IMG/VR virus record: IMGVR_UViG_3300047546_001434
Location: 1 to 30,260 of that record
Strand: one strand, 5' to 3'
Origin: a virus
Length of the DNA stretch: 30,260 nt
Shown in pieces: positions 1-29,388 of the stretch (positions within the stretch are counted from its first letter, which is position 1; every line of letters starts with the position of its first letter). The notes under the pieces are model-generated. The model was not told the origin of the DNA and did not search any database. It was given only the letters and a program-made list of their open reading frames with translations. Made by a program: the position numbers and the translations under genes.

Positions 1-1525
1 CACCTATACCCATGGATATCTGTGCTAGTATAACTATGTTATCTTCTGAGTCATTAAATTGCTGCTCTATAACTTGAGGCTCTGTAGTAGTATGGTCATA
101 CCTTAGAACCTTAGTTATCTTAGATAAACTGGTATATAATCTATCTAGAGTTTCATGGTGCTTAGCCCATACTATGCACTTACCTGATAGAACATGGTTC
201 TCTACTAAGTCATAAACGCTATCTAGCAAAGTATTATCCCCAGTATCTACTACTATTCTACCCGGGTCAGCAGTACTAACTTGGCATTTAGAGGTATATG
301 GTTTTATACTATTAGCTACACAGCTAGGCATATGAACACAAGTATCGCATAGTGTTTTATCTGCCAGAGATTTATATACAAACCCTGAAGATACCTGAGC
401 ACATCTAGTCATAGCAGTAACTGCATTCTCAGGTTCTGGTATGTATTCTCCATTTACAGTAATAGACTCATAGTTAACTAGCTTGTTATATAGCTTTGAT
501 GTTGCAGGGCTAGCTTCTATCTCTATAGTCTGGATAATTCTGTCTGGCAGATCTAAGCACTCTATAGCTTTCTTTCGTATTGAACACTCAGATACTATGG
601 CATTTAGCCTATCTATATTTTTAAGACCCGTAACTATATGTTTATTATAGGGGCTAAAAGTTAAGTACGTTTCCCTAAATTTCCAAGAATCTGGTACTAT
701 GAATTTTCCTAGAAATCGCAGCTGAGCCCACAAATGTAGGGGACTACCTAGAGAGGGAGTTCCGCTAAGTATTAGCCTTCTCGCTGGGGCATTAGGTCCT
801 TCTACTAACTTTAGTATAGCTTTAGTTCTAGCTGAGTCAGGGGTTCTCAAGGAATGACTTTCGTCTGCTACTATTAAGTCAAACTTGTACTTCATAAGCT
901 CATCTATGCACATCTTCGCGGAGTCGTAAGTTATAACCATTCCGCATTTACTAGAATAGGCATTAGCTATTAGCTTTAGCCTGTGGGCTGGGCTACTAGC
1001 TACTATGGGCTGTATGTCTAGCTCAGAGTTACTGTTAGATTTCATCTCCTTTTTCCAGGTAAATAAATTAACTCTAAGGGCTAACACAAGAACCTTTATA
1101 TTATTATTTTTCTTGTGTAGGTATCTTATTAAATCACAAGCTATCTTAGTTTTGCCAAGTCCAGGATCATAGAATAAACCTAACCTAAGATTATTTATAG
1201 CATTAGCTAAGCCCTCTACTTGGTGAGAGTATGGTGTTAGCACAGGTGAGTAGCTATCTATATCTAGAGTTTCTATGCTAGTTTTACATTTAGCTAAGTA
1301 TATTCTCAGGGCTTTTATATCTTCTGTTTCTTTCCAGTATACTATATTCTTTATAGCATCTAAATCTTCTAGTGCTTTTAACCCGAAAGGATAGAAAGCA
1401 GGCAAGTACCAATTACCGTTTGCTTTATTAAACGTTGCCCCGTATAACGTCTTAATAAGAGGTATATCTTTAGTATCTAAGTTAGCTAGGCATATAGCCT
1501 TGTTAGCTATAACTATTGGTTGCAT
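1..1525 (-). CDS. SNF2/DEAD-like superfamily 2 helicase, partial (C-terminus beyond window start)
   Basis: The reverse complement from ATG at 1523-1525 is open to position 1, giving about 508 codons without a stop. Visible superfamily 2 motifs are a Q-like segment (TPYSHQVEGL, about residues 97-106), Walker A PGLGKTK (about 121-127), a DESH box at about 221-224 followed by LRTP, and LILSGTP (motif III, about 250). The last visible part (ILAQISMGIG) leads into motif V. A Cys-rich stretch, CDTCVHMPSC with a further Cys about 12 residues on, could bind zinc. An AGGAG ribosome site (complement 1533-1537) lies 7 bases before the ATG. Phage enzymes of this type act in replication, recombination or transcription, and the exact role here is unknown. 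The gene is divergent from the portal gene, so it probably belongs to another transcription unit. The family call is firm; the function is not. Confidence 0.85.
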   Translation of the reverse strand, partial: MQPIVIANKAICLANLDTKDIPLIKTLYGATFNKANGNWYLPAFYPFGLKALEDLDAIKNIVYWKETEDIKALRIYLAKCKTSIETLDIDSYSPVLTPYSHQVEGLANAINNLRLGLFYDPGLGKTKIACDLIRYLHKKNNNIKVLVLALRVNLFTWKKEMKSNSNSELDIQPIVASSPAHRLKLIANAYSSKCGMVITYDSAKMCIDELMKYKFDLIVADESHSLRTPDSARTKAILKLVEGPNAPARRLILSGTPSLGSPLHLWAQLRFLGKFIVPDSWKFRETYLTFSPYNKHIVTGLKNIDRLNAIVSECSIRKKAIECLDLPDRIIQTIEIEASPATSKLYNKLVNYESITVNGEYIPEPENAVTAMTRCAQVSSGFVYKSLADKTLCDTCVHMPSCVANSIKPYTSKCQVSTADPGRIVVDTGDNTLLDSVYDLVENHVLSGKCIVWAKHHETLDRLYTSLSKITKVLRYDHTTTEPQVIEQQFNDSEDNIVILAQISMGIG

Positions 1526-1555: not shown

Positions 1556-1570
1556 TAAACTTATAACACA
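1556..1570. promoter_or_regulatory. Candidate intergenic promoter motif (copy 1)
   Basis: The 73-base gap between the divergent helicase and portal genes contains TAAACTTATAACACA. Its core ACTTATAACA also occurs before the RNA polymerase gene (5207-5216), and a variant occurs before the 376-aa gene. Read leftward, TGTTATAAG resembles an extended -10 box (TGnTATAAT). Read rightward, it could be an element for a phage polymerase. No good -35 box is visible in either direction, so strand is left open. Confidence 0.3.
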
Positions 1571-1597
1571 ATAACGTGAATATTTAGGGAGGGTTTA

Positions 1598-3340
1598 ATG
1601 AGTTCTTTAGGTTTTAATGACTTCACAGATTCTAGTGGATTGGGTGTTAGTAACTTTGCTGATCCTATGAGATTATGGGTACACTCATTTTCTCCAAGAG
1701 ATTTAAAGCAGTTATTTAGATGGACAGAATACTTATACTATAACAGTGCCCAGATATATGCAGGTGTTAAAAAATTTGCTGAATACCCAATCACAGAAAT
1801 TAATTATCTAAGTGATAGCGATAAATTAGTATCTGCTAATAAAAGACTGTTGGAAGATATTCTAGGTATAAAGAGAGCCTTGATTAGAGCTAGCTTGGAT
1901 TTACAAGTATACGGCAACTCTTTTACTAGTATACACTTGCCTTTCAGAAGATTCTTAAAATGCAAGGCTTGCGGCTACGAGGCACATGTATCTGTATGCG
2001 ACTACACTTACAAACCTACTTCAGCTGAGTTTTCAAATAAGTGCGGTGAGTGCGGTGTAAACGATTTAGTAGAAGTAATAGACAGGCTAATACTAGAACC
2101 AGAAAAGATTAATATTATACGCTGGGACCCTAAACTAATAGATATAGCTGCGAATATAGTAACAGGCGATAATGAATATTTCTTTAGTGTTCCCTCAGAT
2201 ATGAAGTCAGCTGTATATAACGGAGATAGACATCTAATAGAAACTACTCCTATTAATTTACTAAAAACTATGGCGGAGGATGAGCTATTTAAATTTAACA
2301 CAGGTGAGATATTTCATATGAAATCTGATTCTCCTTCTGGTCTTGAGAGTGGGTGGGGGTATCCTAGCTTGGTATCTGCTATACATCTTTTCTACCATGC
2401 TAGTATTCTAAGAAAAGCTAATGAAGCTATAGCTCTGGAGAGAATAGTACCTCTTAGAGTTATGCATCCTCAAGCTGTATCAGGAGCTGCAGATCCTATT
2501 ATGAGTTTGTCTATGGGTAAGTTTATGGGTGAAGTAGAAGAGAACATAAAGAGATGGCGTAGAGACCCTAATCATATAATGATGTCTCCAGTAGCTATAG
2601 GGGTAGCTCAAGTAGGCGGAGAGGGTAGATCTTTAATGGTAGCACAAGAAATAAGCCAAGTAGAAGATAACATCATTGCTAGCATGGGTATACCTAAAGA
2701 ATTTATATATGGCGGTTTAAGTTTTAGCGGTTCAAGTGTTACTCTCAGAATGTTGGAGAATCAATTAGAGCCTAGCACTTTCCAGCTAAATCAATTGTTA
2801 AAATGGATATCAGATAAGTGCTCTAGTTTCTTAGGATGGGAGAAGATTAAAGTAAGTCTCGGTGACTTTAGAATGATCGACGATATGCAGCAAAGACAAA
2901 TGGCTATGCAGCTATGGCAGTCTGGGGTTATATCTAAGACTACGTTGGCAGAAATGAATGGTATAGATATCAACGAAGAACGTGAAAAGATAAAAAATGA
3001 GCAGTTATCCGATGCTAGAAACCAGAAGAAGCTAGATCTAGAAATGCAAGCTATGCAGCAAGACATTGGTATGCAAGCTAGACAAATGGCTACTCAACAA
3101 CAGCAACAACAAATGGGATCTGGCGGTTTGACTTATGATCAGCAAGCAGTTATAGGTCAAGCTGATGGTATAGCTCAACAATTCTTACAGATGGATCCTG
3201 GTACTAGGAAGTCTCAATTAGCTAGCTTGCAGGCTGAAGACTATGTTATGTATAGTGTTGTTATACAAAGACTAGAACAGATGCAGCTAGATCAGAAGAA
3301 TCAAGCTTATGCTCAGATGCAACAACAGCCACCTATGTAG
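1598..3340 (+). CDS. Portal protein
   Basis: This 580-residue protein would form the dodecameric ring at the capsid vertex through which DNA is packaged and ejected. The start follows a strong AGGGAGG site (TTTAGGGAGGGTTTAATG). The central region (about 340-410) has the AQEISQVEDNIIASMGIPKEF segment followed by GSSVTLRMLENQLEP, typical of the portal stem and wing of large phages. The C-terminus (about 480-580) is Gln/Met-rich and ends QQQPPM, as in many portals with a flexible tail. An unusual insertion has CxxC at residues 122/125, Cys134 and CxxC at 149/152, which looks like a zinc ribbon. The gene sits at the head of the rightward structural cluster, and no large terminase is in view. The identification rests on remembered family patterns, not a search. 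Confidence 0.8.
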   Translation: MSSLGFNDFTDSSGLGVSNFADPMRLWVHSFSPRDLKQLFRWTEYLYYNSAQIYAGVKKFAEYPITEINYLSDSDKLVSANKRLLEDILGIKRALIRASLDLQVYGNSFTSIHLPFRRFLKCKACGYEAHVSVCDYTYKPTSAEFSNKCGECGVNDLVEVIDRLILEPEKINIIRWDPKLIDIAANIVTGDNEYFFSVPSDMKSAVYNGDRHLIETTPINLLKTMAEDELFKFNTGEIFHMKSDSPSGLESGWGYPSLVSAIHLFYHASILRKANEAIALERIVPLRVMHPQAVSGAADPIMSLSMGKFMGEVEENIKRWRRDPNHIMMSPVAIGVAQVGGEGRSLMVAQEISQVEDNIIASMGIPKEFIYGGLSFSGSSVTLRMLENQLEPSTFQLNQLLKWISDKCSSFLGWEKIKVSLGDFRMIDDMQQRQMAMQLWQSGVISKTTLAEMNGIDINEEREKIKNEQLSDARNQKKLDLEMQAMQQDIGMQARQMATQQQQQQMGSGGLTYDQQAVIGQADGIAQQFLQMDPGTRKSQLASLQAEDYVMYSVVIQRLEQMQLDQKNQAYAQMQQQPPM

Positions 3341-4046: not shown

Positions 4047-4093
4047 CCGCTTAGCGGATTAGATCCGCCTACCGCCGCACTTTATTGTGCGGC
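4047..4093 (-). promoter_or_regulatory. Cluster of short GC-rich hairpins between leftward genes
   Basis: Three inverted repeats lie close together: GCCGCAC/GTGCGGC (4074-4080 with 4087-4093, six-base loop, spanning the upstream gene's stop codon), GCGGAT/ATCCGC (4054-4059 with 4063-4068) and CCGC/GCGG (4047-4050 with 4054-4057). The last two share bases and so exclude each other. No T-run follows on either strand, so this is not a standard terminator. A processing site, translational coupling control or protein-binding site is possible. Confidence 0.45.
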
Positions 4094-5158
4094 CTCATCC
4101 TTTTTTGTAAATAGCCCCTTGTTGGCAATCATCCATTTAAGGTTGTTTTTATTTTCAGAGCACAACTTTATGAAAGCTAGCTCAGCAGAGTCTATTCCAA
4201 AGGCCAATACTATGGCCCTATCAGTATCTTGTGCCACCATGAGTTCTCTTAACTCTAACATTGCTTGGTAACCCTTGGTCTTAATGGCATTGATAAGATC
4301 CACCTTATCTTTTAGCCTATGGGTCAGCGCCTCGTAACGCGCAGCATTATTAACAACTTCCAACTTTATCCAACCTACTTCCTTTTCTAATTCCACCATT
4401 TCTTGCTTTGCTCTTGCTTTTTCCTCCTCTTCCTTGAGCTTATTCAGCTCAAGATCAAAGGCTCTTAGTAATTCCTCTTGTTCCTTCGCTGCTCTCTCGG
4501 TTCGAGTTTGTAGTGGTGTTCTTATTTTACACTTAAGTTGATCAAACACATTCCCATCTTGCAAGTCTTCATCTAGATAATCCATTAACTCCAGCATTGC
4601 CCTTTTGCTAGATAGCTCTACCTTGTGCCCCTGGCACTCGAACACCACCGATGGCCTTTCCAATAAGTAAAGGTAGCTGGGTATCTTTGCGCTACCTGCT
4701 GTGAGGTAATCCCCTTCTCTAGCTACCCACTTGCCAAGGCCCATTAATCTTGATGCCTCTTCTGGTTTAGCATCTCTCTCTGTTGCCTCAATCGCAAATT
4801 CTGATCCACAAATAGATACGGTGTAACTGCCGGTTTTACGAGCATCTTTACCACCGCAGGTGGCAACTACCTGCATATGTTCGTGTACCTTATCGATAAC
4901 AGTATCTTTGTCTTTGATTGACACTGAGCTGTTATATGAGGTACCTACAACTTCTTCGCTGAAGTCGCAGGTAATTACCAGCTTAGAAATAGCTACTTCC
5001 CCACCCTTGACAAATGACAAAGGAATGGTGAAAGCGATTTTGTTATTATCTTTAGCTGGTGTAACTTTGCTATCTGAACCACCAAAGCTGGTGTTTAGTT
5101 CTGTAGCTGTAACTTTAGCTTGGACCTTTGGTCCTTTAGTATTGAGATTCTTACTCAA
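4082..5158 (-). CDS. Hypothetical coiled-coil protein, leftward island
   Basis: This is a 358-residue frame. Its first codon is TTG (complement 5156-5158), supported by an AGGAG site 7 bases upstream; no nearby ATG fits. Residues about 1-110 look like a beta-rich domain (TIPLSFVKGGEVAISKLVIT), and about 145-200 form a second folded segment. Residues about 210-265 are a charged coiled coil (KLKEEEEKARAKQEMVELE) with helical continuation. I do not recognise a family. It lies on the opposite strand to the surrounding structural genes, between portal and RNA polymerase, and looks somewhat richer in G and C than its neighbours. This suggests a separately regulated, possibly acquired accessory gene (a moron). 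Expression may start from the AT-rich gap it shares with the polymerase gene. Confidence 0.75.
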   Translation of the reverse strand: MSKNLNTKGPKVQAKVTATELNTSFGGSDSKVTPAKDNNKIAFTIPLSFVKGGEVAISKLVITCDFSEEVVGTSYNSSVSIKDKDTVIDKVHEHMQVVATCGGKDARKTGSYTVSICGSEFAIEATERDAKPEEASRLMGLGKWVAREGDYLTAGSAKIPSYLYLLERPSVVFECQGHKVELSSKRAMLELMDYLDEDLQDGNVFDQLKCKIRTPLQTRTERAAKEQEELLRAFDLELNKLKEEEEKARAKQEMVELEKEVGWIKLEVVNNAARYEALTHRLKDKVDLINAIKTKGYQAMLELRELMVAQDTDRAIVLAFGIDSAELAFIKLCSENKNNLKWMIANKGLFTKKDEAAQ

Positions 5159-5201: not shown

Positions 5202-5231
5202 TATATACTTATAACAGGATTTTTATATAAT
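5202..5231. promoter_or_regulatory. Candidate promoter region before RNA polymerase gene (motif copy 2)
   Basis: The divergent gap 5159-5257 holds TATATACTTATAACA (5202-5216) and a TATAAT hexamer (5226-5231) upstream of the 1450-aa gene. No TTGACA-like box lies at 16-18 bases from TATAAT; the shared motif occupies that place instead. The motif recurs before the 376-aa gene, ending 42 bases before the ATG in both cases. Read leftward, TGTTATAAG could serve the 358-aa gene. Confidence 0.35.
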
Positions 5232-5257
5232 TTGTGCCGTAATGTAGGATAGAAAAG

Positions 5258-8200
5258 ATGTCTCAGCCAGAAGTAAGACCACTGATGCAGTCAGTAGAAG
5301 AAAAGCAAAAATCTATTAGAGAAAAGACTATAGAAGGTCTAGAGGGCATGTTCCCCATAGTAGGTACTCACCATGATGTTGAAATTAAGAATTTCAGAGT
5401 AATTGAAAAGCCGGTAGACTATAATACACACAAAGATGCTCTATACAAAAGAGGTACTTTATACGAACCGGTTAAGGCAGATGTAATAATAAAGGACAAA
5501 CAGGGAAATGTGGTTGACCAGAAAAATGGGCACACAGTGCTACACCTACCTAGAGTATCTTGGAATAATGCATTTTTAATAAATGGAAATGAATACGCAT
5601 TTAAGAACCAATTAAGAACAATGCCTGGGGTTTATACTAGACAAAGAGAAAATGAAGAGCTAGAAGCTTCTTTTAACTTGGCTAAAGGAAGCAACTTTAG
5701 AGTCAATATGGATCCTGCAAAAGGTCTACTTAATATGGAGTATGGGACAACTTCAATACCAATGTACCCCGTTCTAAGAAGTTTGGGTATGGAGCACTCT
5801 GACATAGCTAACTACCTAGGTAAAGATCTAGCCGAAAGAAATGCTTCTGAGTACGGAAATAAAGGACAAGCTGCTATACAAAAGCTGTATGAGAAATTAG
5901 TTCCTGAGAATAAAAGAACAGCTACTAGCCACCAAGAAAGAGTACAAGCTATTCAAGCTCACTACGATAGTACTGTTCTATCTGAAAAAACTACAGAAAG
6001 AACGCTTGGTAAAGGTTTTAGCAAAGTAACCCCAGAATCTATATTGTTAGCCAGTAAGAAACTAGTAGGAGTATACAAGGGTGATGAGTCCCCAGACGAT
6101 AGAGATTCTCTTGAGTTTCAGAGAGTTCTAGGAGTGGAGGACATGTTCAAAGAGAGAATAAGGCTAAAGGGTAAGGAACTTGGGTACAAAATAAAGACAA
6201 AGCTAGACTTAGCTAAAGAAGTTAAAGTATCTCAAGTCATGCCAAGCACGGCTATAACCCCAATGCTAAAGCAGTACATATCTACGTCACAGCTATCAAT
6301 GATACCCTCCCAAATTAATCCAGTAGAATTACTAGATAGCTCTCTATCTGTAACTAGACTTGGCGAAGGTGGTATTGGTAGTGATAGAGCTATTCCTGGC
6401 GAAGTTCGACAACTACACCCTACACAGATGGGTATAATAGATCCATTTAGAACCCCAGAATCGGGGCATGCAGGTGTTGACGTTAGATTTACTCTAGGGG
6501 CAGGTAGAGATAAGGATGGGTACTTATATACTAAATTAAAGAATGCTAAAACTAACGAGATGGAGTGGGTTCCTGCTAGGAAAATAAGGGACTTAAATAT
6601 AGCTTTTCCTCAGCAAGATACAGACAAGGGTAGAGTGGATGCTATGGCTAAAGGTAAGGTATCAAAGATAAAACCAGGAGAAGTTGACTACATAGTTAAT
6701 AGCGTAAAAGATATGTATACTCTTAGCACTAATATGGTTCCTTTCTTAGATGGTACTCAGGGTAATCGTATAATCATGGGTAGCAAAATGGTTGGTCAAG
6801 CTGTACCTTTAGTTGAAAGAGAGACCCCATTAGTTGGGCCTTCTCTTAATGACAAGAATACATCTATTAGCATGGAGAATGTAGTTGCTAAGATAAGCTC
6901 CCCTTCTGCTTCAGAGGATGGTGTAGTTTCTAAGGTAAATCCAGATAGCATAGTCTTAAAAACTAAAGAAGGGGAGAAAGTTATACCTTTAGCTAATAAT
7001 GTACCCATGGCCTCTAAAACATTTTATCACCATACTCCTATGGTTAAGGTAGGTGATAAAGTTACTAAGGGTCAGATACTTGCTGAGAGTAACTATGCTA
7101 AGGGAGACAAGCTGGCACTTGGTAAGAATCTTAAAATGGCCTATATGGCTTACCATGGTTTAAACTCAAATGACGCTGTGGTTGTATCTGAGGAAGCGGC
7201 CCATAAGATGCGCTCAGTTAAGATGAGCAAGTATGTAGTTGAGGTAGATAAAGATACTAGAATAGATCACTATAAACATGCAGCTAACTTCCCAAAGCAA
7301 TTCACTAAAGATCAGTACGCTAAGATGAAAGATGGGATAGTACAAAAAGGAACTATATTAAAGCCAGGTGATCCTATAATAACTGTTCTTCAGAAAAAAG
7401 CACCAAGTATAGAGAATCAAATACTTGGTAAGATACACAAATCACTAAGGTCTGAATACTCAGACAAAACTGAAACCTGGACAGGGGAGTCAGAAGCTGA
7501 AGTAGTAGATGTTCAACAACAGGGTAATAAGATAACTGTTGTTACTAAGTCAGAAGAGCCACTAAGAATAGGTGATAAGGTTAGTAATAGATACGGTGGT
7601 AAAGGAGTTATATCTAAAATAGTTCCTACTGAGAGTATGGTGCAAGACGAGTCTGGTAAGCCTATAGATATATTGTGGTCTAGTCTAAGCGTTGTTTCAC
7701 GTATTAATCCTGGGCAGGTTATAGAAGTAGCTATGGCAAAAGCTGCTCAGAAAAAGGGAACAGAATATGTAATCCCCAATTTCCAAAAAGTTAATAATAT
7801 TAAGATGGCTAGGCAGGCCCTAAAGGAAGCTGGGATAAAGGACAAGGAAGATGTTTATGACCCAGTAACTGGTAAGACTATTAAAGGTATTATGGTTGGC
7901 CCGCAGTATACATACCGTTTATTTAAAACAACAGATACTAACTTCTCAGCTAGAGGTATAGATGGCGGCTACGATATAAACGGTGCTCCTAGTAAAGGCG
8001 GTGAGGAAGGTGCAAAGGGTACAGGGGCTATGGAAATAAATGCTCTTCTTGCTCACGATGCCAGAGATATATTAAAAGAAAACGCAGTAATAAAAGGCAC
8101 AAAGAACACTGAGTACTGGAGAGCTATACAACTGGGTAGACCTGTTCCTCCACCTCAAAGCAGCTTTGCTTTTGACAAGTTTAAACACATGTTAGCGGGT

Positions 8201-9610
8201 GCCGGACTTAGACTAGATAGAAAAGAAAATAATATGACTATAGCTCCGTTGCTAGACGAAGAAGTTAAAAAAATGTCTAGTGGGGAAATTAAAAATGCTA
8301 AGATGGTGTTTGCTAAGAATCTAATGCCAGAGAGAGATGGCTTGTTTGATATAGTAACTACTGGCGGTTTACAAGGAACTAGGTACTCCCATATAGAGTT
8401 ACCTGAGTCAGTATTAAATCCACTATTTAGCGATGCAGCTAGAAGATTACTAGGAACTTCTGAAACTAATCTAAAAAAAGAAATACTAGAAAAAGGTGGA
8501 GATGATATACGTAAGAAACTTAATTCTCTAGATTTAGATTCAGAGCTAGAAAAAGCCAAGAAGGAGTTAAGTAATTTAAAAGGAGCTGACAAAGATAACG
8601 CCTACAAAAAGATAAAAGCTATAAACGCTTTAAAAGAGAATAATCATAAGCCAGGAGAGGCTTACATGATTAAGACATTCCCAGTAATACCACCACAGTT
8701 TAGACCTATAGTTCCTGGAAAAGGTAATGATCTACTAGTTTCAGATGTTAATCATATGTACAAGGATCTAATGCTAGCTAAAGAAAAGCTTCAAGAAGCA
8801 AAGGATCTGGATTTACCTGATGATGATATTAAAGAAATGAGATCTCATCTTCAGCAAGCTGCCGGTGCTGTTATAGGTGTTAATCCTCCAGTATCTCAGA
8901 AGCTAGTACAGAGCGAAGTCAAGGGTATTGTTAACACTATTACTGGAACTAAGACTGGGTTTTTTAACGGAAAGGTTTTAGCCAGAAGGCTAGACTTGAC
9001 TGGTCGCGGTACTGCCGCACCTGACCCAGATTTAGGCATGGACGAAGTAGGTTTACCAGAAGAAATGATGTGGGGTATGTATGCGCCTTTTATCATGAAG
9101 AGCTTAGTTAAGCGTGGCTATAATGCTATATCTGCGAAAGAAATGGTAGATAAGAGAACTTCCCAAGCTAGAGAAGAACTAATGATAGAATCAAAGAATA
9201 GGCCTGTATTTTTAAACAGAGCTCCTACACTACATAGATTTAACATGATAGCTGCATTTCCTAAACCAACTTCTGGTAAAACAATTACTGTTTCTCCTTT
9301 TATGGAAGATGGTATGAATCTCGACTATGACGGTGATGCTCTACAGATACATTTACCTGCTACTGAAGATGCTGTTAAAGATACTAAAAAGATGTTATTG
9401 TCTAATAATGTATTTGGCGATAGAACTAGAGAGCAATTACTAGCTTATCCTAAGCACGAAGCTATTGCAGGAATTGCAAGAGTCGCAGAAGATAAACGCG
9501 AGTCTGGGAAAAAGTTTAAATTTAATACAGTAAGAGAAGCTAAGCAAGCCTATAGGCGCGGCGAAGTATCTTTAATAGACCATGTTGAGATTGATAATGA
9601 GAATGACTAA
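5258..9610 (+). CDS. Phage multisubunit RNA polymerase, beta fused to N-terminal half of beta'
   Basis: This 1450-residue protein carries most conserved beta regions in order: FLINGNEY..QLRTMPGV (about 104-125, protrusion), HPTQMGIIDPFRTPESG (about 387-403, fork loop), NRIIMGSKMVGQAVPL (about 503-518), KMAYMAYHGLNSNDAVVVSE (about 626-645), GDKVSNRYGGKGVISKIVP (772-790) and GEEGAKGTGAMEINALLAHD (about 915-934). Without a break it then becomes beta': RYSHIELP (about 1042-1049), FPVIPPQFRPIVPG (about 1141), KVLARRLDLTGRG (about 1239), RPVFLNRAPTLHRFN (about 1315) and the catalytic Mg-binding loop LDYDGD with Asp1356, 1358 and 1360. The beta' N-terminal zinc finger seems to be missing. It ends at AYRRGEVSLIDHVEID, matching the point in beta' just before the TTVGR..FN..LP segment, which opens the second polypeptide at 11103. 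It should form the catalytic core with that protein. No alpha, omega or sigma gene is visible here. Confidence 0.93.
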   Translation: MSQPEVRPLMQSVEEKQKSIREKTIEGLEGMFPIVGTHHDVEIKNFRVIEKPVDYNTHKDALYKRGTLYEPVKADVIIKDKQGNVVDQKNGHTVLHLPRVSWNNAFLINGNEYAFKNQLRTMPGVYTRQRENEELEASFNLAKGSNFRVNMDPAKGLLNMEYGTTSIPMYPVLRSLGMEHSDIANYLGKDLAERNASEYGNKGQAAIQKLYEKLVPENKRTATSHQERVQAIQAHYDSTVLSEKTTERTLGKGFSKVTPESILLASKKLVGVYKGDESPDDRDSLEFQRVLGVEDMFKERIRLKGKELGYKIKTKLDLAKEVKVSQVMPSTAITPMLKQYISTSQLSMIPSQINPVELLDSSLSVTRLGEGGIGSDRAIPGEVRQLHPTQMGIIDPFRTPESGHAGVDVRFTLGAGRDKDGYLYTKLKNAKTNEMEWVPARKIRDLNIAFPQQDTDKGRVDAMAKGKVSKIKPGEVDYIVNSVKDMYTLSTNMVPFLDGTQGNRIIMGSKMVGQAVPLVERETPLVGPSLNDKNTSISMENVVAKISSPSASEDGVVSKVNPDSIVLKTKEGEKVIPLANNVPMASKTFYHHTPMVKVGDKVTKGQILAESNYAKGDKLALGKNLKMAYMAYHGLNSNDAVVVSEEAAHKMRSVKMSKYVVEVDKDTRIDHYKHAANFPKQFTKDQYAKMKDGIVQKGTILKPGDPIITVLQKKAPSIENQILGKIHKSLRSEYSDKTETWTGESEAEVVDVQQQGNKITVVTKSEEPLRIGDKVSNRYGGKGVISKIVPTESMVQDESGKPIDILWSSLSVVSRINPGQVIEVAMAKAAQKKGTEYVIPNFQKVNNIKMARQALKEAGIKDKEDVYDPVTGKTIKGIMVGPQYTYRLFKTTDTNFSARGIDGGYDINGAPSKGGEEGAKGTGAMEINALLAHDARDILKENAVIKGTKNTEYWRAIQLGRPVPPPQSSFAFDKFKHMLAGAGLRLDRKENNMTIAPLLDEEVKKMSSGEIKNAKMVFAKNLMPERDGLFDIVTTGGLQGTRYSHIELPESVLNPLFSDAARRLLGTSETNLKKEILEKGGDDIRKKLNSLDLDSELEKAKKELSNLKGADKDNAYKKIKAINALKENNHKPGEAYMIKTFPVIPPQFRPIVPGKGNDLLVSDVNHMYKDLMLAKEKLQEAKDLDLPDDDIKEMRSHLQQAAGAVIGVNPPVSQKLVQSEVKGIVNTITGTKTGFFNGKVLARRLDLTGRGTAAPDPDLGMDEVGLPEEMMWGMYAPFIMKSLVKRGYNAISAKEMVDKRTSQAREELMIESKNRPVFLNRAPTLHRFNMIAAFPKPTSGKTITVSPFMEDGMNLDYDGDALQIHLPATEDAVKDTKKMLLSNNVFGDRTREQLLAYPKHEAIAGIARVAEDKRESGKKFKFNTVREAKQAYRRGEVSLIDHVEIDNEND

Positions 9611-9845
9611 TAAAGCAATATATAACGCCTACCTTATAGGCTGTAAGCTAGCTGAGATTAACAATGCTAGCCAACTAGCTGCAGCAATGAACAAACAAGA
9701 TGATAAAGAGCTAGATAACTTAAACGAGAAAGTGCCAGATAGTACTAGCTTAATGACTGGCGACTCTGAGTATAAAAACGGGGATTCCTGGGGTCACAAG
9801 GTAGAACTATTTATGCCAAGTAATATGGGAGTACCATCAAGATGA
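9603..9845 (+). CDS. Hypothetical 80-residue protein between polymerase genes
   Basis: Three in-frame ATGs (9582, 9597, 9603) overlap the end of the beta-beta' gene. I choose 9603 because MTNKAIYNAYLIGCKLAEIN resembles the N-termini of neighbouring genes (a Tyr-rich start, then a G-x-x-x-A pattern). The stop overlaps the next start as ATGA. The rest is polar with no visible domain (SLMTGDSEYKNGDSWGHK). Tight coupling to the polymerase genes suggests a product needed in similar amount, such as a virion or polymerase accessory protein. No family recognised. Confidence 0.65.
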   Translation: MTNKAIYNAYLIGCKLAEINNASQLAAAMNKQDDKELDNLNEKVPDSTSLMTGDSEYKNGDSWGHKVELFMPSNMGVPSR

Positions 9846-10696
9846 GTACTTACTCTGACTACTATGACACCGGAGCAAACTTAGCAAAACTAGAGTTTGA
9901 GAAACAGGCCTTTATAGCTAACTTAGGTAAATTAATCTGGAATAGCGCTCCACGTAAAGCTCTCGGATATCTTACTGGTATGGGGGGTAGGATAGGCTCT
10001 AAGGGTAGCTTTGCATATAAGTACTTGCCCTCACATACTGTAGGTAGCGGTCTTGGTTTTGGTATGATTAATGCTGCAACCGCTGAAGAGGGTAATAAAT
10101 CAAACGCATTCCTAACTGGGGCACTAACTGGTGTAGGTTTTGGCGTTATGGGTAGGCACGCTGGTAGATTAGGAGCTAGAATTTTTAACCCGTCAATGCA
10201 AAGATCAAACTTAGCTAGGTATTCTAACATGGGATTTAAGCCTGACGCTGCAAGAGCTATGGCTGCAAAAAATGAATTAGCCTATGTAGAAAATGCATTA
10301 TCAAACTCTGGTGGTAATATATCTAAGCTCAAAAACTATACTTCGTCTGAGCAGTTTAAACTCCTAGATGCAAATTCGCAGAAATTCATATCAGAGGGTT
10401 TATCAAAAGCAAATAAAGGTTATGTAGCGGATGACTTTCTATCAGGCCTAAGTAAGTTAAAGCAGACTGCGAAGACTACTGCAGATGACTTATATAGAGC
10501 AAGCGACAAATCAGCTATAAACAAGTACAGATTTAATAAGGGGTTAAAATATACTGGTGCTGTTGGCTTAGGTATTGGGGGTACATTTATGGTACCATTA
10601 AATGACATTAGTCAATCTGTAGCTAATAGAGTTGTACCTCCTATAGCTCAGACGCCCAGCAATATGTACAACCCATACTATGGAGGTATGAAATGA
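9842..10696 (+). CDS. Hypothetical glycine-rich virion-like protein (284 aa)
   Basis: The ATG overlaps the previous stop (ATGA) and the stop overlaps the next start. The N-terminus YYDTGANLAKLEFEKQAF resembles that of the next gene (YYYKLGYNYTKEA). Three glycine-rich, weakly hydrophobic segments are seen: about 62-79 (HTVGSGLGFGMINAATA), about 88-107 (AFLTGALTGVGFGVMGRHAG) and about 238-254 (TGAVGLGIGGTFMVPL). A helical polar middle lies between them. Such segments occur in phage internal or ejection proteins that enter membranes, but no family was recognised. It lies between the two RNA polymerase genes, so co-packaging with the polymerase is conceivable. Confidence 0.7.
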   Translation: MSTYSDYYDTGANLAKLEFEKQAFIANLGKLIWNSAPRKALGYLTGMGGRIGSKGSFAYKYLPSHTVGSGLGFGMINAATAEEGNKSNAFLTGALTGVGFGVMGRHAGRLGARIFNPSMQRSNLARYSNMGFKPDAARAMAAKNELAYVENALSNSGGNISKLKNYTSSEQFKLLDANSQKFISEGLSKANKGYVADDFLSGLSKLKQTAKTTADDLYRASDKSAINKYRFNKGLKYTGAVGLGIGGTFMVPLNDISQSVANRVVPPIAQTPSNMYNPYYGGMK

Positions 10697-11106
10697 GCTT
10701 ACAAAATTACTATTACAAACTTGGGTATAACTACACAAAAGAAGCATCTGCCAGGTCTTTTATAGTTCCAGCTGCCTTAGGGGGTTTAGGCGGACTAGGT
10801 TACGGTATGACAAGAAAAGAGAACCCAACTAAAGATCCGCTACACCCTGCAGCATCTACTTACGGAGCTATAGGTCTTCAAGCTGGTTTAGGTACAGGTG
10901 CTGCTGCCCTAGCCACTAAGTTATTAGGTATAAAGGGCTTAAATAGATCAGGCTTAGCAGTTCTTGGTGGTTTAGGCGGCGGTATTTATGGATTACATAA
11001 AGCAACCAGCCAAGGTAGGCCAGACTTGTTACTTAAGCAACCAGGCTTAGAGTATCCATATAGCGACTATGAGTATCAACTAGCTTCTTTAAAGGGTGCC
11101 ATATGA
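10693..11106 (+). CDS. Hypothetical small glycine-rich membrane-like protein (137 aa)
   Basis: The start has a GGAGGT site and an ATGA overlap with the preceding gene; its own stop overlaps the beta'-C start in the same way. The N-terminus is MSLQNYYYKLGYNYTKEAS. Three glycine-zipper-like hydrophobic stretches follow: about 23-39 (FIVPAALGGLGGLGYGM), about 57-80 and about 85-100 (GLAVLGGLGGGIYGL). The C-terminus is polar (YPYSDYEYQLASLKG). No family recognised. It is likely membrane-active or packed in the virion, coupled in translation to the polymerase. Confidence 0.7.
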   Translation: MSLQNYYYKLGYNYTKEASARSFIVPAALGGLGGLGYGMTRKENPTKDPLHPAASTYGAIGLQAGLGTGAAALATKLLGIKGLNRSGLAVLGGLGGGIYGLHKATSQGRPDLLLKQPGLEYPYSDYEYQLASLKGAI

Positions 11107-12881
11107 TATCTGGAAAGTTAGGTACAGTACTAATAAACTCAGCTTTGCCGAAGGACTATAGATCCGAAGGTGACTTAGATCTTAAAAAAATGAAAGGCAA
11201 TTTAATTAAGCTAGCTAAAAATGCCCCTGAGCAATATAAGTTCGTAGCTCCAAAGATTAAAAAGCTAGGTGATGAGTTTTCTACTTACGAGTCTATTACA
11301 GTAGGTTTAGATGATATAGAGCCAGACTATGCTGAAAGAGACTCAATAATAAACTCAGCCCAGAAAGTAGTTGACACCTACGGCGCAAAGTCCAAGCAAG
11401 CCTTTGATGCATTTATGTCTGCACAAGAAAAAGTTATGGATTTAACTAAGCGACATAAGGGCGATATGGCGATGACTGCTAGGTCTGGTAGTAGAGGTAA
11501 TACTACACAGCTAATGAAGATCATAGCTACACCTGTAGTGGTTGGGGATTTTCATGGTAATCCTGTGCCATTTTTAATAAAGCGTAGTTATGCTGAGGGG
11601 CTAAGCCCCGCTGAGGCTTGGATAGCAGGGGATGAAAGTAGAAGCCAAGTTATTAAGGGTCAGCTAGGTACAGCAGAGCCTGGGGAAATGCAGAAAGTTC
11701 TCAGTTCTGTTATGTCTTCAGCTGTAGTATCAGAGAATGACTGTGGTACAGATAACGGTATTAGGCTCAAAGTAGATGACCCTAGTATAGAGGGTAGATA
11801 TATAGCGGCTACTGGTGAGTTAGTAACTTCTCAGAAAGCTGCGCAGCTAAGTCAGAAAGGTGGGTTTATATTAGTAAGATCGCCAATGACTTGCGAGCTT
11901 GAGAAAGGCGTATGCCAGAAATGCTCAGGCACGAGCGTAAAGGGCGGTGACTATGACATAGGTACATCTCTAGGTCTTAGGTCTGCTCAAGCTTTATCTG
12001 AACCATTAACACAAATGCAGCTAAGTGCTAAGCACGGCGTTAGCTTGGTTAAAGGTGACGCTAATAAACCAAGAGGTTTAAAAGCCTTTAAGCAATTCGT
12101 AGAAATACCTAAGAACTTTTTCTACAAGGCTACACTTGCTAACTCAGCAGGTAAAGTAGAAAGTATTAAAGAAGCTCCACAAGGCGGGTTTGATGTCTAC
12201 ATAAACAAAGAGCACCATTATGTTCCGCCTGGAAGAGATATTAAAGTAAAGTCAGGGGAGGAAGTAGAAGCGGGAGATTTGCTTAGTACAGGCGTACCAG
12301 CTCCTGACGAAGTACTAAAACACAAGGGTATGGGGTCAGGTAGAGAGTACTTAGTTAAGTCTATTAGAGAGTCTTTTGAAGACAGCGGTATAAAAATAGA
12401 CCAAAGAAATATAGAGGTTCTAGCTAAGACACAGCTTAACTTTGTAAAATTAGATAAGCCAGTAGGAGACATGCTAGAGGGCGATGTAGTTCCTGTTTCT
12501 TCTGTTGTTAAGCAAATGGGTTTAACTGGGCAAAAGTCTAGCGTAATGTCCTCTGTTGGAAAAGTATTAGCTAAGCCAGTGTTTGAACATATACCAGGTA
12601 CACTAATAACTAAAAGAATAGCTGAGGATATATTAGACAAAGGCAAGAATGAAGTTTTTGTAACTGACTCAAAGCCTGTGTTTAAACCGGTTATGGTTGC
12701 TGCTACTAGAACTCCACTACTAAACCCTAATTGGCTTCAAAGACTTGGTTACAGGTACCAAAAAGACACACTTATAGATGCAGCTACATTTGGTCAAAAA
12801 GCAGATATACACGGCTATGACCCTCTAGCAGCTCTGGCTATAGGTAAAGAATTTAAACGAGGACCAAAAGGAGAGTACTAA
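11103..12881 (+). CDS. Phage multisubunit RNA polymerase, C-terminal half of beta'
   Basis: This 592-residue protein continues beta' where the 1450-aa protein stops: GKLGTVLINSALPKDYR (4-20) matches the TTVGR..FN..LP segment. SGSRG (128-132) matches the SGARG region. Residues about 170-210 occupy the place of the bridge helix, keeping its TA..G residues (LGTAEPGE). The zinc site is intact: Cys214 (NDCGT), Cys264, Cys271 and Cys274 (GVCQKC). The trigger loop is SEPLTQMQLSAKHGV (299-313): it keeps His311 at the catalytic His position but has Ser where E. coli has Arg933. The C-terminal clamp segment TRTPLLNPNWLQRLGYRYQ..LIDAATFGQKADIHG is also recognisable. It must pair with the upstream beta-beta'N protein to form an active site. 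Confidence 0.92.
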   Translation: MISGKLGTVLINSALPKDYRSEGDLDLKKMKGNLIKLAKNAPEQYKFVAPKIKKLGDEFSTYESITVGLDDIEPDYAERDSIINSAQKVVDTYGAKSKQAFDAFMSAQEKVMDLTKRHKGDMAMTARSGSRGNTTQLMKIIATPVVVGDFHGNPVPFLIKRSYAEGLSPAEAWIAGDESRSQVIKGQLGTAEPGEMQKVLSSVMSSAVVSENDCGTDNGIRLKVDDPSIEGRYIAATGELVTSQKAAQLSQKGGFILVRSPMTCELEKGVCQKCSGTSVKGGDYDIGTSLGLRSAQALSEPLTQMQLSAKHGVSLVKGDANKPRGLKAFKQFVEIPKNFFYKATLANSAGKVESIKEAPQGGFDVYINKEHHYVPPGRDIKVKSGEEVEAGDLLSTGVPAPDEVLKHKGMGSGREYLVKSIRESFEDSGIKIDQRNIEVLAKTQLNFVKLDKPVGDMLEGDVVPVSSVVKQMGLTGQKSSVMSSVGKVLAKPVFEHIPGTLITKRIAEDILDKGKNEVFVTDSKPVFKPVMVAATRTPLLNPNWLQRLGYRYQKDTLIDAATFGQKADIHGYDPLAALAIGKEFKRGPKGEY

Positions 12882-13546
12882 TGAAATACAAAACTTCAGG
12901 TGTTATAGACTCAGCGGCTAGGATGCTAGTTGGGAATAGAGCGGGTCTTAATTCTGCCCAAAGAAAGTTCGTTAATACGTACGTAGGTAACCATGGGGCG
13001 GTTAAGACAGACTTAAAGAATAGCCGAGGATTTTTAAAGAGTATACTACTAGGTAATCAGAACGCAGCTAATATAACTAGAGCCAGATATATGCAGGGTG
13101 GCTTGCTAGGTAAGGGAGGTGTTATACGCGGAGAACTTTCTCCTAGCGATGAATATATCTCTAGTGCTAAAAAGCTAAAAGATTACCTACTAGCAGATGC
13201 AGGCAGTGCTAGTAATTTCTCAGGATCTGACGTTAAGACTCTGTTGAGTGGATCTCCTATAGCAGCTTTAAACATAGGTTTCAACGTAGGATTTCCTGCC
13301 ATGGAAGCGTCTAAAGTGCTTAGGGGAGAATCTGAAGAGTACGGTGACAGAAAAGGTTCTGGTGTCGGGGCAGCACTTGGTAGCGGCTTAGGCTTCATAC
13401 TATCAAGTAATTTTGGGTTACCTGCCAGTATACTAGCTTCGTATATAGGTAAGAATGTAGGTCAGAGAGCTGGAAGTTTGTTTGACAAAAAAGAGCAAAC
13501 TCCGTATGACCAGACTATGAGCATAGCTGAGAAAGCTCTAATGTAG
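12881..13546 (+). CDS. Hypothetical glycine-rich protein after beta'-C (221 aa)
   Basis: It starts in a TAATG overlap with the polymerase gene behind an AAAGGAG site, so it is co-translated. The N-terminal half is basic and polar (NSAQRKFVNTYVGNHGAVK). Hydrophobic or glycine-rich segments lie at about 126-142 (SPIAALNIGFNVGFPAM) and 158-190 (GVGAALGSGLGFILSSNFG, then ASILASYIGKNVG). The C-terminus is short and charged. No family recognised. It resembles the glycine-rich neighbours at 9842 and 10693, pointing to a set of internal virion or membrane-interacting proteins around the polymerase genes. It is the last gene before a hairpin and a candidate promoter. Confidence 0.7.
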   Translation: MKYKTSGVIDSAARMLVGNRAGLNSAQRKFVNTYVGNHGAVKTDLKNSRGFLKSILLGNQNAANITRARYMQGGLLGKGGVIRGELSPSDEYISSAKKLKDYLLADAGSASNFSGSDVKTLLSGSPIAALNIGFNVGFPAMEASKVLRGESEEYGDRKGSGVGAALGSGLGFILSSNFGLPASILASYIGKNVGQRAGSLFDKKEQTPYDQTMSIAEKALM

Positions 13547-21077: not shown

Positions 21078-22673
21078 ATGAAAAATAGCTCTTTTAATAA
21101 AATCATAGAACTCGATGAGCACTTTAAAGGTACCCATACCTTTGAACCTACAGTTCAATTACTGCACTCTAATTCTAAAATAAAAGTAGCTAGCGAAGCT
21201 TCTGATTGGTCTAGATCTGTATCACCAGAGCCAGGTAAAACTTTTATACTAGTATTAGCTATGGGTGCCAGTGAGTACTATGGACCCAATAGAAACGGCG
21301 ATGCGTTTAGAGAAGCTGAACTTATTAAGAAATACAAGACATTTGAAACAAATGCTCACGTATTTAGATCTCACGTAAATAAAGACCCAGCTAAGTCCAT
21401 GGGTAGCGTAGTCAAAGCTTTCTACAACAATGACATGCACAGAGTGGAACTTATATTAAAGCTAAATAATTCTGACTGCCCCGATATTGTAGATAAAATA
21501 CATGCGGGAGAGAACGTAGCTGTTAGTATGGGTTGCAGAATAGAGTTTGACGTATGTACTATATGTGGCAATAAGGCACCTAGTAGAAAAGAATATTGTG
21601 ACCATTTACTAAATGAGCTTAATGATATTTACCCTGATGGTAGAATAGTTGCTGCAGATAACCCTGATCCTAATTTCTTCGATATATCTGTAGTTTATAA
21701 GCCAGCGGATAAAACAGGGTACATGTTAAAGAAGGTAGCCAGTTTAAATAGTTTTACTAAAGAAGCTGGTTTGCCTAGTAGCTTAATAGCTGAAAAAATA
21801 GCAGCTAGAACGGCTATAGCTAAGTACCTAACAAAGGCTGCTGATATAGAGAAAATAGTTACTGGCGTAGGCTTTGCCGCTAGTACTGGATCTGGTAGTA
21901 GTTCCAGCGATACAGACTCCTTATCAAAGAAGTGGTTGTTATCTATTGTACCTAAGCTAACAAAGTCTCATATGGATATAGCAGATAGTGACTTAGCTTC
22001 TATGAGTAGCAGAGACTTTCCTAAAGTAATAAATACTCTAAGCAAGATGGGTATATTCTTAACTACACCAGAATTTTTGGATTTAATGTTTCTAAAAATC
22101 ACAGGTAATAAAGCACCCGAAGGTTTAGCTAGTAAATTAATATCTCTGCAAGGGGATATATTTAGCTTGCTGTCTAAACACCCAGATATAGCAGAAGACT
22201 TAATTACTTCTGGATCAGTGGCAACTGGTACTGAAGGTACAGATAGCCAGATAGAGTCTAAGATGGCTAGCTATGTCCCATTCAGGTCTTTATTGGCAGG
22301 TAATATATTACATCCAGCTAAGTCAACTAAGTTGGCTAGCTCTAGCGGTACTGGATATATACCTAGATGCACTAACTTTGATAGAGATTTACTTAAGTTT
22401 GCTGCAGTTAGCTTAGCCTGCTATAAAATGAACGTACTAGAAACATGTAGTAATAGTAGCAGCTCTGCATTGGATTTAGCTAAGAGTAGACCCTCTTACA
22501 ATTACAAGATAGCTTCTAATATGCCATGGGTTCCTTATACTTTGTCAGCTATTGATAGAGACAAAACTAAAAGTAAGTTCTCCAAAATAGCTAATTTTGG
22601 CGGAGTGTCTAGGATACCGACTATCACTAGAAACCAAGCAGAGAACTTGATAGTTAACTTGATTCTCTCGTAA
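21078..22673 (+). CDS. Prohead (capsid maturation) protease with zinc motif and long C-terminal extension
   Basis: Residues about 50-220 match the capsid maturation protease pattern of large phages: NRNGDAF (about 71-77), a catalytic-type His in HVFRSHVNKDPAKSMG (His99) and a catalytic-type Ser in NVAVSMGCRIEFDVC (Ser150). Right after it is a probable zinc site, Cys160-xx-Cys163 with Cys174 and His176 (EYCDHL). The enzyme would cut scaffold, core and capsid proteins during head maturation. The C-terminal ~300 residues, rich in K-x-A-[S/A] motifs (KVASLNSFTKEAGLPS, ESKMASYVPF, NYKIASNMPW), have no recognised domain and may be scaffold-like or self-cleaved. It lies upstream of small core-like genes and the capsid gene, as expected. 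Confidence 0.78.
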   Translation: MKNSSFNKIIELDEHFKGTHTFEPTVQLLHSNSKIKVASEASDWSRSVSPEPGKTFILVLAMGASEYYGPNRNGDAFREAELIKKYKTFETNAHVFRSHVNKDPAKSMGSVVKAFYNNDMHRVELILKLNNSDCPDIVDKIHAGENVAVSMGCRIEFDVCTICGNKAPSRKEYCDHLLNELNDIYPDGRIVAADNPDPNFFDISVVYKPADKTGYMLKKVASLNSFTKEAGLPSSLIAEKIAARTAIAKYLTKAADIEKIVTGVGFAASTGSGSSSSDTDSLSKKWLLSIVPKLTKSHMDIADSDLASMSSRDFPKVINTLSKMGIFLTTPEFLDLMFLKITGNKAPEGLASKLISLQGDIFSLLSKHPDIAEDLITSGSVATGTEGTDSQIESKMASYVPFRSLLAGNILHPAKSTKLASSSGTGYIPRCTNFDRDLLKFAAVSLACYKMNVLETCSNSSSSALDLAKSRPSYNYKIASNMPWVPYTLSAIDRDKTKSKFSKIANFGGVSRIPTITRNQAENLIVNLILS

Positions 22674-24909: not shown

Positions 24910-25962
24910 ATGAGCACAGAGAGAGAAAAATTAAGCGCACAATTTATTAATAGAAGCTTTGTTAATAAACTCGATCAAGGTCGCGTAAAAGAAGCTCAAG
25001 ATGAAGGTAGCCGTTTTATTCGTAGTAAATTACGTCAAGAATCTTTTGCTAGAGTTATCTTACAACCTGTAGAATTAGCTCCAGAAGAAATTGATCGTGA
25101 TGAACACACAGATCAACCTAAGAAGATTATCGAAAAAGAACCAGATTCTGTAGCTACATTTGTCACATTCAAGGGTGCTGGCCAACGTACATTCTTCAAG
25201 GGTCCAAGATACTCAGTATACTTCGGTAAAATTGAATCTCAACACTTTATGAAGTCAAAGTTCGAACTTCTCACATATCAAAATGACATCCGTAAAATCC
25301 TAACAGATAACTCTGTAAAAGATATGGCTGATGAAGAAGATCGTAAGTTCATGGAAACTATTGACGCAGCTATTCAAGAAGTTGCTCCTGCTACAAATGC
25401 AGGCACTATTGATACTAACGCTGACGGTGTAGTAGAAACATATCTTCCAGAAGGCGAAGATCAATTCGCAATACCTGATCTCTTAGTTTCTAATAACTTA
25501 GTAGCTAAGTCTCTTGACGGTAATGGCGGTTTCGTACAGAAGTCTTTGAGCAGAGAACTTATTGCTCAATTGTACCAATGTATGACACAAAAGAAGTTGC
25601 CTATTGGTAAGCTTCTTATGACCAAAGCTACATACATGGAATGCTTGAAGTTCCCCTACACAGATGTCGGTAACGATATTCTTAGCCGCCACTATGACCA
25701 AGGTCTTGAAGGCGAAGATAAGTTATTTGGTGTACCAGTAGTTACAACAATCAAGAATGATATTATTCCTGATAATGTAATTTACTTGTTTGCTCCAGAA
25801 AACTATCTCGGTAACTTCTTCTTACTTCAAGATGCTACCTTGTTTATCAAGCAAGAAGCTGACATGATCGAATTTTGGTCATACAGTGCCCCTGGTATGG
25901 GTATCGGTAATGCTAAAGGTGTAATTAAATTGAGTGGATTTAAATCAGTAAACTCAATCTAA
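24910..25962 (+). CDS. Major capsid protein (HK97-like)
   Basis: This 350-residue protein follows the decoration gene behind a GAGAGG site and is followed by a strong terminator. It has features of HK97-type capsid proteins of large phages: a helical N-terminal arm (about 1-50), a long beta-strand E-loop-like region (VATFVTFKGAGQRTFFKG), a helical spine segment around 110-150 and C-terminal strands (DATLFIKQEADMIEFWSY). There is a GVPVVTTIKNDIIPDNVIYL stretch near 275-294, common near the capsid A-domain. Arginine is often encoded by CGT here, unlike most genes in the window where AGA dominates, which fits strong expression. Position after protease and scaffold-like genes supports the call. 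Confidence 0.82.
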   Translation: MSTEREKLSAQFINRSFVNKLDQGRVKEAQDEGSRFIRSKLRQESFARVILQPVELAPEEIDRDEHTDQPKKIIEKEPDSVATFVTFKGAGQRTFFKGPRYSVYFGKIESQHFMKSKFELLTYQNDIRKILTDNSVKDMADEEDRKFMETIDAAIQEVAPATNAGTIDTNADGVVETYLPEGEDQFAIPDLLVSNNLVAKSLDGNGGFVQKSLSRELIAQLYQCMTQKKLPIGKLLMTKATYMECLKFPYTDVGNDILSRHYDQGLEGEDKLFGVPVVTTIKNDIIPDNVIYLFAPENYLGNFFLLQDATLFIKQEADMIEFWSYSAPGMGIGNAKGVIKLSGFKSVNSI

Positions 25963-28639: not shown

Positions 28640-29388
28640 CCAAGGCCCCCAGGGTATTCAAGGCCTCAAGGGTGACACTGGTGACCAAGGCCCTCAAGGT
28701 ATTCAAGGCCTCAAGGGAGACACTGGTGATCAAGGTCCTCAAGGCATTCAAGGTATACAAGGCGAGCAGGGTATTCAAGGTCCAGCCGGAGCTGATGCTG
28801 TATGGAATTACACAGGCGAGTATAATGGAGGTAGTTCATACTCAATAGGTGATTTAGCAACATATAACGGTAGCCTATGGTACAGATCAAACGCAAACGG
28901 TGGCAATGTAGGTGATGTTCCTAGCTTGGGTAGCAACTTCTGGGATATACTTGCAGCTAAGGGAGATCAGGGAATACAAGGTGTACAAGGCATACAGGGG
29001 GACATTGGAGCTCAAGGCCCACAAGGTATTCAGGGCGAGCAAGGTATTCAGGGCGAGCAAGGTATTCAGGGCGAGCAAGGTATTCAGGGTATCCAGGGTG
29101 AGCAAGGACTAAAGGGTGACACCGGAGATCAAGGACCCCAGGGTATTCAAGGTATTCAAGGCCTCAAGGGTGACACTGGTGACCAAGGACCACAAGGCAT
29201 CCAAGGCTTGAAAGGCGATACCGGCGACCAAGGACCCCAGGGTATTCAAGGTCTCAAGGGTGACACTGGCGACCAAGGTCCCCAGGGTATTCAGGGTATT
29301 CAGGGTATTCAGGGTATTCAGGGTATTCAGGGTCTCAAAGGCGACACCGGCGACCAAGGCCCCCAAGGTATTCAAGGAGACCCAGGAG
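27284..29388 (+). repeat. Collagen-type Gly-X-Y coding repeats in three blocks
   Basis: Blocks run at about 27284-28223, 28373-28790 and 28962-29388. Short units such as GGTATTCAAGG and GGCGACCAAGGTCC recur with few changes, giving many near-identical 18- to 45-base stretches. Such DNA is prone to slippage, recombination and assembly error. Confidence 0.92.
28571..28660 (+). other. Repeat-slippage frameshift junction in fibre gene
   Basis: The intact copy starting at 28571 reads GGCCCTCAAGGTATTCAAGG and goes on to CCTCAAGGGAGACACT. At 28616 the sequence goes from GGCCCTCAAGG straight to GAGACACT. The two CTCAAGG copies have apparently been joined with loss of 17 bases, which moves the reading frame and creates the TGA at 28637-28639. 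Confidence 0.8.

Follow-up and report, generated by a model that had tools for sequence, protein, structure and literature searches.

The viral record IMGVR_UViG_3300047546_001434 of IMG/VR, analysed here as a 30,260-base fragment (the window, meaning that whole stretch), encodes at positions 5258-12881 a bacterial-type RNA polymerase (RNAP) in two pieces. In the first, P0001, the β subunit is fused to the N-terminal part of β' (β-β'N); the second, P0002, is the C-terminal part of β' (β'C). This observation was first made in a preliminary description of the sequence and is confirmed. The most probable reading, with a probability of about 0.6, is that the two chains form a core without α and ω that is packaged in the particle, delivered with the DNA, and transcribes early genes together with a phage σ70-family factor. 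Cellular RNA polymerases require α, and often ω, for the assembly of β and β'. In the proposed mechanism, β-β'N and β'C would make up a complete, catalytically competent core lacking both of these subunits, the joining of β and β' in one chain taking over the assembly job that α performs in cells. The core would be made late, alongside the virion proteins, and then packaged. We infer that it is active, that it enters with the DNA and transcribes early genes, and that this σ factor pairs with it and directs it to promoters of the form CACAAA-N17-YATAAG.

A bacterial-type core in two chains

Both open reading frames (ORFs) are present, and the elements that define the core are placed as follows, with the aligned Escherichia coli residues in parentheses.

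5258-9610, plus strand: β-β'N fusion P0001, 1450 amino acids (Pfam, PDB sequence matches, E. coli alignment, structure model)
7577-7603, plus strand: β active-site lysines K774 and K782 of P0001 (K1065 and K1073; E. coli alignment)
9317-9337, plus strand: catalytic Mg loop NLDYDGD of P0001, D1356, D1358 and D1360 (β' D460, D462 and D464; E. coli alignment)
11103-12881, plus strand: β'C P0002, 592 amino acids, with bridge helix, trigger loop, second zinc site and β' C-terminus (Pfam Rpb1_5, structure model)
11742-11924, plus strand: zinc site 2 (Zn2) cysteines C214, C264, C271 and C274 of P0002 (C814, C888, C895 and C898; E. coli alignment)
12033-12035, plus strand: trigger-loop His311 of P0002 (H936; E. 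coli alignment)

P0001 matches the Pfam families Rpb2_6 (4e-48), Rpb2_3, Rpb2_2, Rpb1_1 (4e-16), and Rpb1_2 (2e-17), P0002 matches Rpb1_5 (1e-16), and the PDB sequence matches of both proteins are bacterial β and β' chains. The β motifs, the LDYDGD loop, the second zinc site and the trigger-loop histidine, all picked out in the preliminary description, are in register with E. coli. P0001 contains no cysteine, and P0002 contains four, precisely the zinc-2 set. The β part is intact within a single ORF (amino acids 1 to ~990 of P0001) and is followed by the N-terminal part of β' (~991-1450), the equivalent of E. coli β 1341 being joined to that of about β' 27 via a short linker. P0001 stops at about E. 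coli β' 555 and P0002 begins at about 569, so that almost no sequence has been lost at the split. The β' N-terminal zinc ribbon (Zn1: C70, C72, C85, C88) is deleted in all aligned phage forms. AlphaFold models of the single chains are also bacterial in their matches. The P0002 model (predicted local distance difference test score, pLDDT, 84.6) has the bacterial β' chain 8i23_D as its top PDB structure match (E 8.7e-28), and the model of P0001 residues 251-1450 (pLDDT 72, with weak stretches) matches bacterial RpoB in the PDB (E 3e-47). A frameshift or assembly break within β' was ruled out: three other ORFs fill the 1.5-kb gap between the two genes, and independent relatives are split alike. 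The split is also found in a 99%-identical contig (L002) and in dozens of diverged contigs.

It is barely credible that the two proteins are a catalytically dead structural relic. The replacement of trigger-loop R933 by Ser and of β H1237 by Lys might suggest as much, but the family as a whole has kept the three catalytic aspartates and the two active-site lysines, along with the zinc site and the framework of bridge and trigger loop. Throughout the split clade, alignment to E. coli has Ser, Gly, or Asn in place of R933, and Lys/Asn in place of β H1237/K1242. These changes fall at P0002 308 and at P0001 890 and 895; the one-piece forms described below mostly retain the bacterial residues. Loss of R933 and replacement of H1237/K1242 may possibly represent a coupled change. 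Several rifampicin-contact residues are altered in the window protein (Q513M, D516S, H526S, R529S, S531T), and the polymerase is therefore predicted to be rifampicin-resistant.

Missing subunits, sigma factor and probable presence in the particle

Searches for α (PF01193, PF01000) and ω (PF01192) gave no match in any of 35 family records (over 130 kb long in most cases), and PF01193 was likewise absent from 15 further one-piece records. Controls for the three families were positive in 13, 13, and 14 of 14 genomes, respectively. This agrees with the lack of α and ω noted in the preliminary description. The phage chains might instead recruit host α and ω to form a hybrid enzyme, and the bacterial fold, the presence of the β' C-terminus and the lack of an encoded α would all be compatible with this. 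Such an enzyme is nevertheless decidedly improbable, as phiKZ-like phage polymerases function without α (PMC7598289) and fusion of the chains would make α needless for joining β to β'.

The σ70 region 2 domain was detected in 29 of the 35 records, comprising 25/26 with the split architecture and 4/9 one-piece forms, and in the two-piece phages checked the gene lies ~8-11 kb upstream of β. L002, whose polymerase gene is 99% identical to that of the window, encodes a σ70-type factor of 233 amino acids with regions 2 and 4, located ~8 kb upstream, beyond the helicase. This position is just past the left edge of the window, and the earlier remark that no σ gene lies nearby is an edge effect, true of the window only. 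Relatives carry exactly one β gene per genome (31/31, Rpb2_6 matches), so that a single enzyme must serve.

Evidence from particles is available for Salmonella phage Arash, in which the corresponding pair, gp206 and gp216, is encoded 3' of the portal gene gp204 (OQ632216). In sucrose-gradient-purified Arash particles, Gp206 was detected with 3516 spectra (rank 1), 128 unique peptides and 100% coverage, and Gp216 with 1210 spectra (rank 5), compared with 1333 for the capsid protein and 877 for the portal; the σ factor Gp10 is also listed, with 467 spectra and 24 unique peptides (PMC10585845). Spectra per residue, computed from these published counts, are ~2.3 for Gp206, ~2.0 for Gp216 and 1.5 for the portal, the near-equal values of the two polymerase chains being as expected of a 1:1 complex. 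Since Arash shares the split and both chains are among its most-detected particle proteins, it is probable that the particle brings the polymerase into the host, where it sets off phage transcription. By this analogy the Arash proteome supports the virion packaging suggested in the preliminary description.

A promoter-like motif is found in the same phages. The most enriched 8-mer 5' of genes in Arash is GGTATAAG (8 copies vs. 0.12 expected), and in the relative G001 the top upstream 8-mer, found independently, is GGCATAAG (5 vs. 0.11). The pattern GGYATAAG is intergenic in 18/31 copies in Arash and 11/20 in G001, where 9% would be expected (binomial p 6e-12 and 3e-7, respectively). Of the 31 Arash copies, 30 are on the strand that does not encode the polymerase cluster. 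GGYATAAG is not enriched in the window itself; the window clade has TGTTATAAG/TGTCATAAG instead. In eight window-clade loci, which share descent so that motif counts are not independent, none of the 23 copies of TGKYATAAG shares the strand of the polymerase genes and 14 are intergenic (8.5% expected); seven scrambled patterns yielded between 0 and 4 intergenic copies in these loci. No TGKYATAAG-type pattern was found in bacterial and phiKZ loci. A CRCAAA-like hexamer is present 14-15 nt upstream in 15 of the 23 copies, giving the composite CACAAA-N17-YATAAG, with spacing as in σ70 promoters but different hexamers. Two such elements are found in the window.

1560-1588, minus strand: promoter-like CCTAAA-N14-TGTTATAAG, upstream of the minus-strand helicase gene
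5208-5236, minus strand: promoter-like CACAAA-N14-TGTTATAAG, pointing away from the β gene, 49 nt before the minus-strand ORF 4082-5158

Both minus-strand genes of the window are preceded by the motif, and the plus-strand polymerase and virion genes are without it, which is the pattern that an enzyme produced late in one infection and active early in the following one would be expected to show. No obvious late promoter was found 5' of the β gene in 13 aligned leaders.

A different account would make the polymerase a non-virion enzyme for late genes, present in particles by carry-over; host RNAP, diverted by the phage σ factor, would then transcribe the early genes. This account is unlikely, though it deserves real weight, and several observations tell against a packaged, early-acting core. 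The Arash particle list runs to 116 proteins, including enzymes of nucleotide metabolism, and its authors themselves raise carry-over (PMC10585845). The sequence TGnTATAAG resembles an extended -10 element, and host RNAP with the phage σ factor could equally use the motif. The Arash proteins are 35%/30% identical to the window pair, the virion σ factor Gp10 is distinct from Gp196, whose gene lies upstream of the portal and which PMC10585845 does not mention, and the phage proteins have not kept R275 and E295, clamp residues that in E. coli contact σ. On the other side, the two chains hold first and fifth place in spectral counts, with values higher than, or close to, that of the capsid protein; there is one RNAP per genome; and the polymerase lies within the virion gene cluster, with the promoter-like motif on the opposite strand. 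Packaging of the core for early transcription is preferred on this balance.

Relatives, chain number and genomic setting

Both halves were found at full length by tblastn in Arash and in Vibrio phages D69, D148 and D181 (~28-34% identity), alignment over almost the whole length giving 30-35% identity, and dozens more split relatives came from IMG/VR scans. A profile search for relatives with the same split, proposed in the preliminary description, was carried out as a hidden Markov model (HMM) survey. Among complete loci, with some contigs counted as two, it yielded 58 two-piece, 8 three-piece (β, β'N, β'C) and 28 one-piece forms, the last having β-β'N-β'C as a single chain of ~2,015-2,200 amino acids. 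A later scan seeded with one-piece forms gave at least nearly 80 more loci, almost all one-piece. One-piece forms (for example L060, L088, L102, L112, L118 and L224-L303) are very common in IMG/VR. A portal gene of the same family was located within 4 kb on the 5' side in 46/49 of the two-piece loci, 5/5 of the three-piece loci and 47/94 of the one-piece loci, in keeping with the location in the virion gene cluster originally reported; with this family shared at the same place, the loci appear to belong to one phage lineage. In a search for family members in host genomes, the matches checked were ordinary bacterial rpoBC loci, which served as the outgroup.

The arrangement had been called unusual. 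The two-piece form is indeed odd, but it is not unique, being common to Arash, D69 and dozens of IMG/VR contigs. Prior description of close relatives, which the preliminary description gave as grounds for refutation, is half the case: Arash gp206/gp216 and D69 are deposited with the split, but as far as found no paper recognises a β plus half-β' protein. Neither the split nor the one-piece forms were found described in the open-licence literature, including recent reviews.

Phage forms are monophyletic against bacterial outgroups (64/64). In a site-mixture tree of 33 taxa with a bacterial root, split forms make up one clade with Shimodaira-Hasegawa-like approximate likelihood ratio (SH-aLRT) support of 100, and the one-piece form L088 is its sister (97). 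Architecture requires three changes on this tree, the least possible number. The cheapest order under the bacterial root would be fusion of β and β', a break inside β', and then a break between β and β'N, and the tree favours such a single-chain ancestor without proving it. One-piece forms as one clade are not rejected by the approximately unbiased (AU) test (p 0.121), so that the nesting is not firm. The β' split might otherwise have been inherited from an already split ancestor of the cyanobacterial rpoC1/rpoC2 type, with β fused later to the N-terminal half. The break does fall close to where cyanobacterial RpoC2 begins (profile position 29-31 corresponds to RpoC2 residue 6-14), and the phiKZ-type β' break is at the rpoC1/rpoC2 site too (PMC7598289). 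Such inheritance is still improbable, given the nesting of the split clade among one-piece forms and the minimum number of changes. The phiKZ subunits gave weak matches only to the family HMMs (gp74 to the β'C model, gp73 to the β model), too weak for a tree or exact mapping, and the phiKZ split site is for this reason taken from the literature (PMC7598289).

Further interruptions occur in some relatives. The β part of D181 is broken by a group I intron (RF00028, 100.7 bits; L006 7506-7786) beside a homing endonuclease, and L113 is interrupted at the same β position (515/516). Long in-frame inserts are found at the catalytic DGD loop (L134, L042, L101, L119, L120, L129), near the β'C trigger loop (L134, L133) and at β ~416-440 (L046, L048, L051, L119); the L134 insert is intein-like, with a LAGLIDADG-like motif. 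Some one-piece ORFs (L228, L229, L230, L233, L234, L237) are interrupted in various places by single in-frame stops, which suggests stop-codon recoding. Three records listed as phages yet carrying annotated rpoB/rpoC (AFYI01000006, AGRM01000005, CAKLQH020000005) are probably host contamination.

The remaining genes assigned or considered in the window are the following.

2-1525, minus strand: DNA helicase, truncated by the window edge (phrog_62, 1.5e-64; SNF2-type domain, 1.3e-20, in the L002 homologue)
1598-3340, plus strand: portal protein gene just 5' of the polymerase, position conserved (PHROG portal, 7e-6)
4082-5158, minus strand: 358-amino-acid protein, divergent from the β gene, behind the conserved CACAAA-N17-TATAAG element; no Pfam or PHROG match
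9582-9845, plus strand: small ORF P0005, overlapping the β-β'N 3' end (translational coupling); no family match in profile searches
9842-10696, plus strand: ORF P0003, between the two polymerase genes, with 4-nt overlaps; no family assigned
10693-11106, plus strand: ORF P0004, with a 4-nt overlap with the β'C start; no family assigned
12881-13546, plus strand: 221-amino-acid ORF, next in the same overlapping-gene operon; no function assigned
21078-22673, plus strand: head maturation protease-like gene of the virion cluster (phrog_18299, 4.5e-11)
24910-25962, plus strand: major head protein-like gene of the virion cluster (phrog_2522, 3.6e-4, weak)

Given the start-to-stop overlaps that run from β-β'N via β'C to the ORF at 12881-13546, these genes look translationally coupled. 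A collagen-like repeat gene is present as two overlapping ORFs in different frames (26852-28639 and 28608-29675), probably owing to a frameshift or an assembly slip within the repeats. Many virion-cluster proteins encoded between 9582 and 25000 share a Y/F..G...A pattern at the N-terminus and carry KxA motifs (KLA, KEA, KTAS) in repeated copies. These may be sites for sorting or for a protease.

A wider proposal, tentative and put at somewhat less than even odds, is that these phages represent a widespread tailed-phage lineage beyond the described phiKZ-like and mReC groups, in which a fusion of ~2,100 amino acids was later broken into two and three chains, and in which the packaged core and its own σ factor would form a self-sufficient three-protein holoenzyme acting on CACAAA-N17-YATAAG. 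If so, it would be, to our knowledge, the first virion RNAP of cellular type to keep σ-dependent initiation. The interest lies in this σ dependence together with the natural occurrence of the same α-less core as one, two or three chains; as Arash is culturable, this series allows the question of α in assembly to be tested. Packaged with its σ factor, the enzyme would also be a compact, σ-dependent, probably rifampicin-insensitive polymerase of practical use.

Comparison with known systems

The window polymerase shares with the cellular α2-β-β'-ω RNAP the DxDGD triad, the active-site lysines, Zn2 and the trigger-loop histidine, but the α dimer, ω and Zn1 are absent. In Helicobacter and Wolbachia all of β' is fused directly to the β C-terminus, and α is present. 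A direct β-β' junction is common to these bacteria and the window, whereas in the latter only the N-terminal part of β' is fused and α is absent. The closest counterparts, Arash, D69, D148 and D181, have the same split, a portal gene just upstream and a σ70-type gene, with no α or ω found. They differ in forming a clade separate from the window type, in the helicase lying downstream of β'C in Arash, and, for D181 and D148, in an insertion with a homing endonuclease in the β part, shown in D181 to involve the group I intron. Their polymerase proteins are annotated simply as β and β', or as hypothetical.

The mReC phages are likewise tailed phages known from metagenomes, with a bacterial-like, deep-branching RNAP (PMC7481178). 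They were selected for a β' of at least 800 amino acids with the motif NADxDGD (PMC7481178), whereas the window β' is in two pieces and has NLDYDGD. The mReC capsid family PF07068 matched none of 47 records tested, with T4 matching as positive control; capsid was itself detected in only 8/97 mReC contigs (PMC7481178). Membership of this group was rejected on capsid and architecture: PF07068 is absent, and among the matches listed in the scan with one-piece seeds nearly all were single-chain forms, with no phages that have a separate full β and full β'. The single-chain two-barrel RNAPs YonO, P23-45 gp64/gp96 and those of crAss-like phages belong to the same superfamily and also use few chains, but they are small and very divergent (PMC10770324, PMC5467207), while the window relatives retain nearly the whole of bacterial β and β'.

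The phiKZ/AR9-type polymerases (Chimalliviridae and kin) also lack α and ω, have β' split after the catalytic barrel and include a virion-borne version (PMC7598289). In those phages β is split as well, virion and non-virion RNAPs are encoded in each genome, and there is no recognisable σ factor, whereas in the window family β is whole and fused to β'N, one enzyme is encoded per genome, and a σ gene is present. The origin of phiKZ-like polymerases has been called a mystery in reviews; as the window family and the phiKZ-like RNAPs break β' at the same place, the family links the clearly bacterial-like phage polymerases to the scrambled phiKZ-like type.

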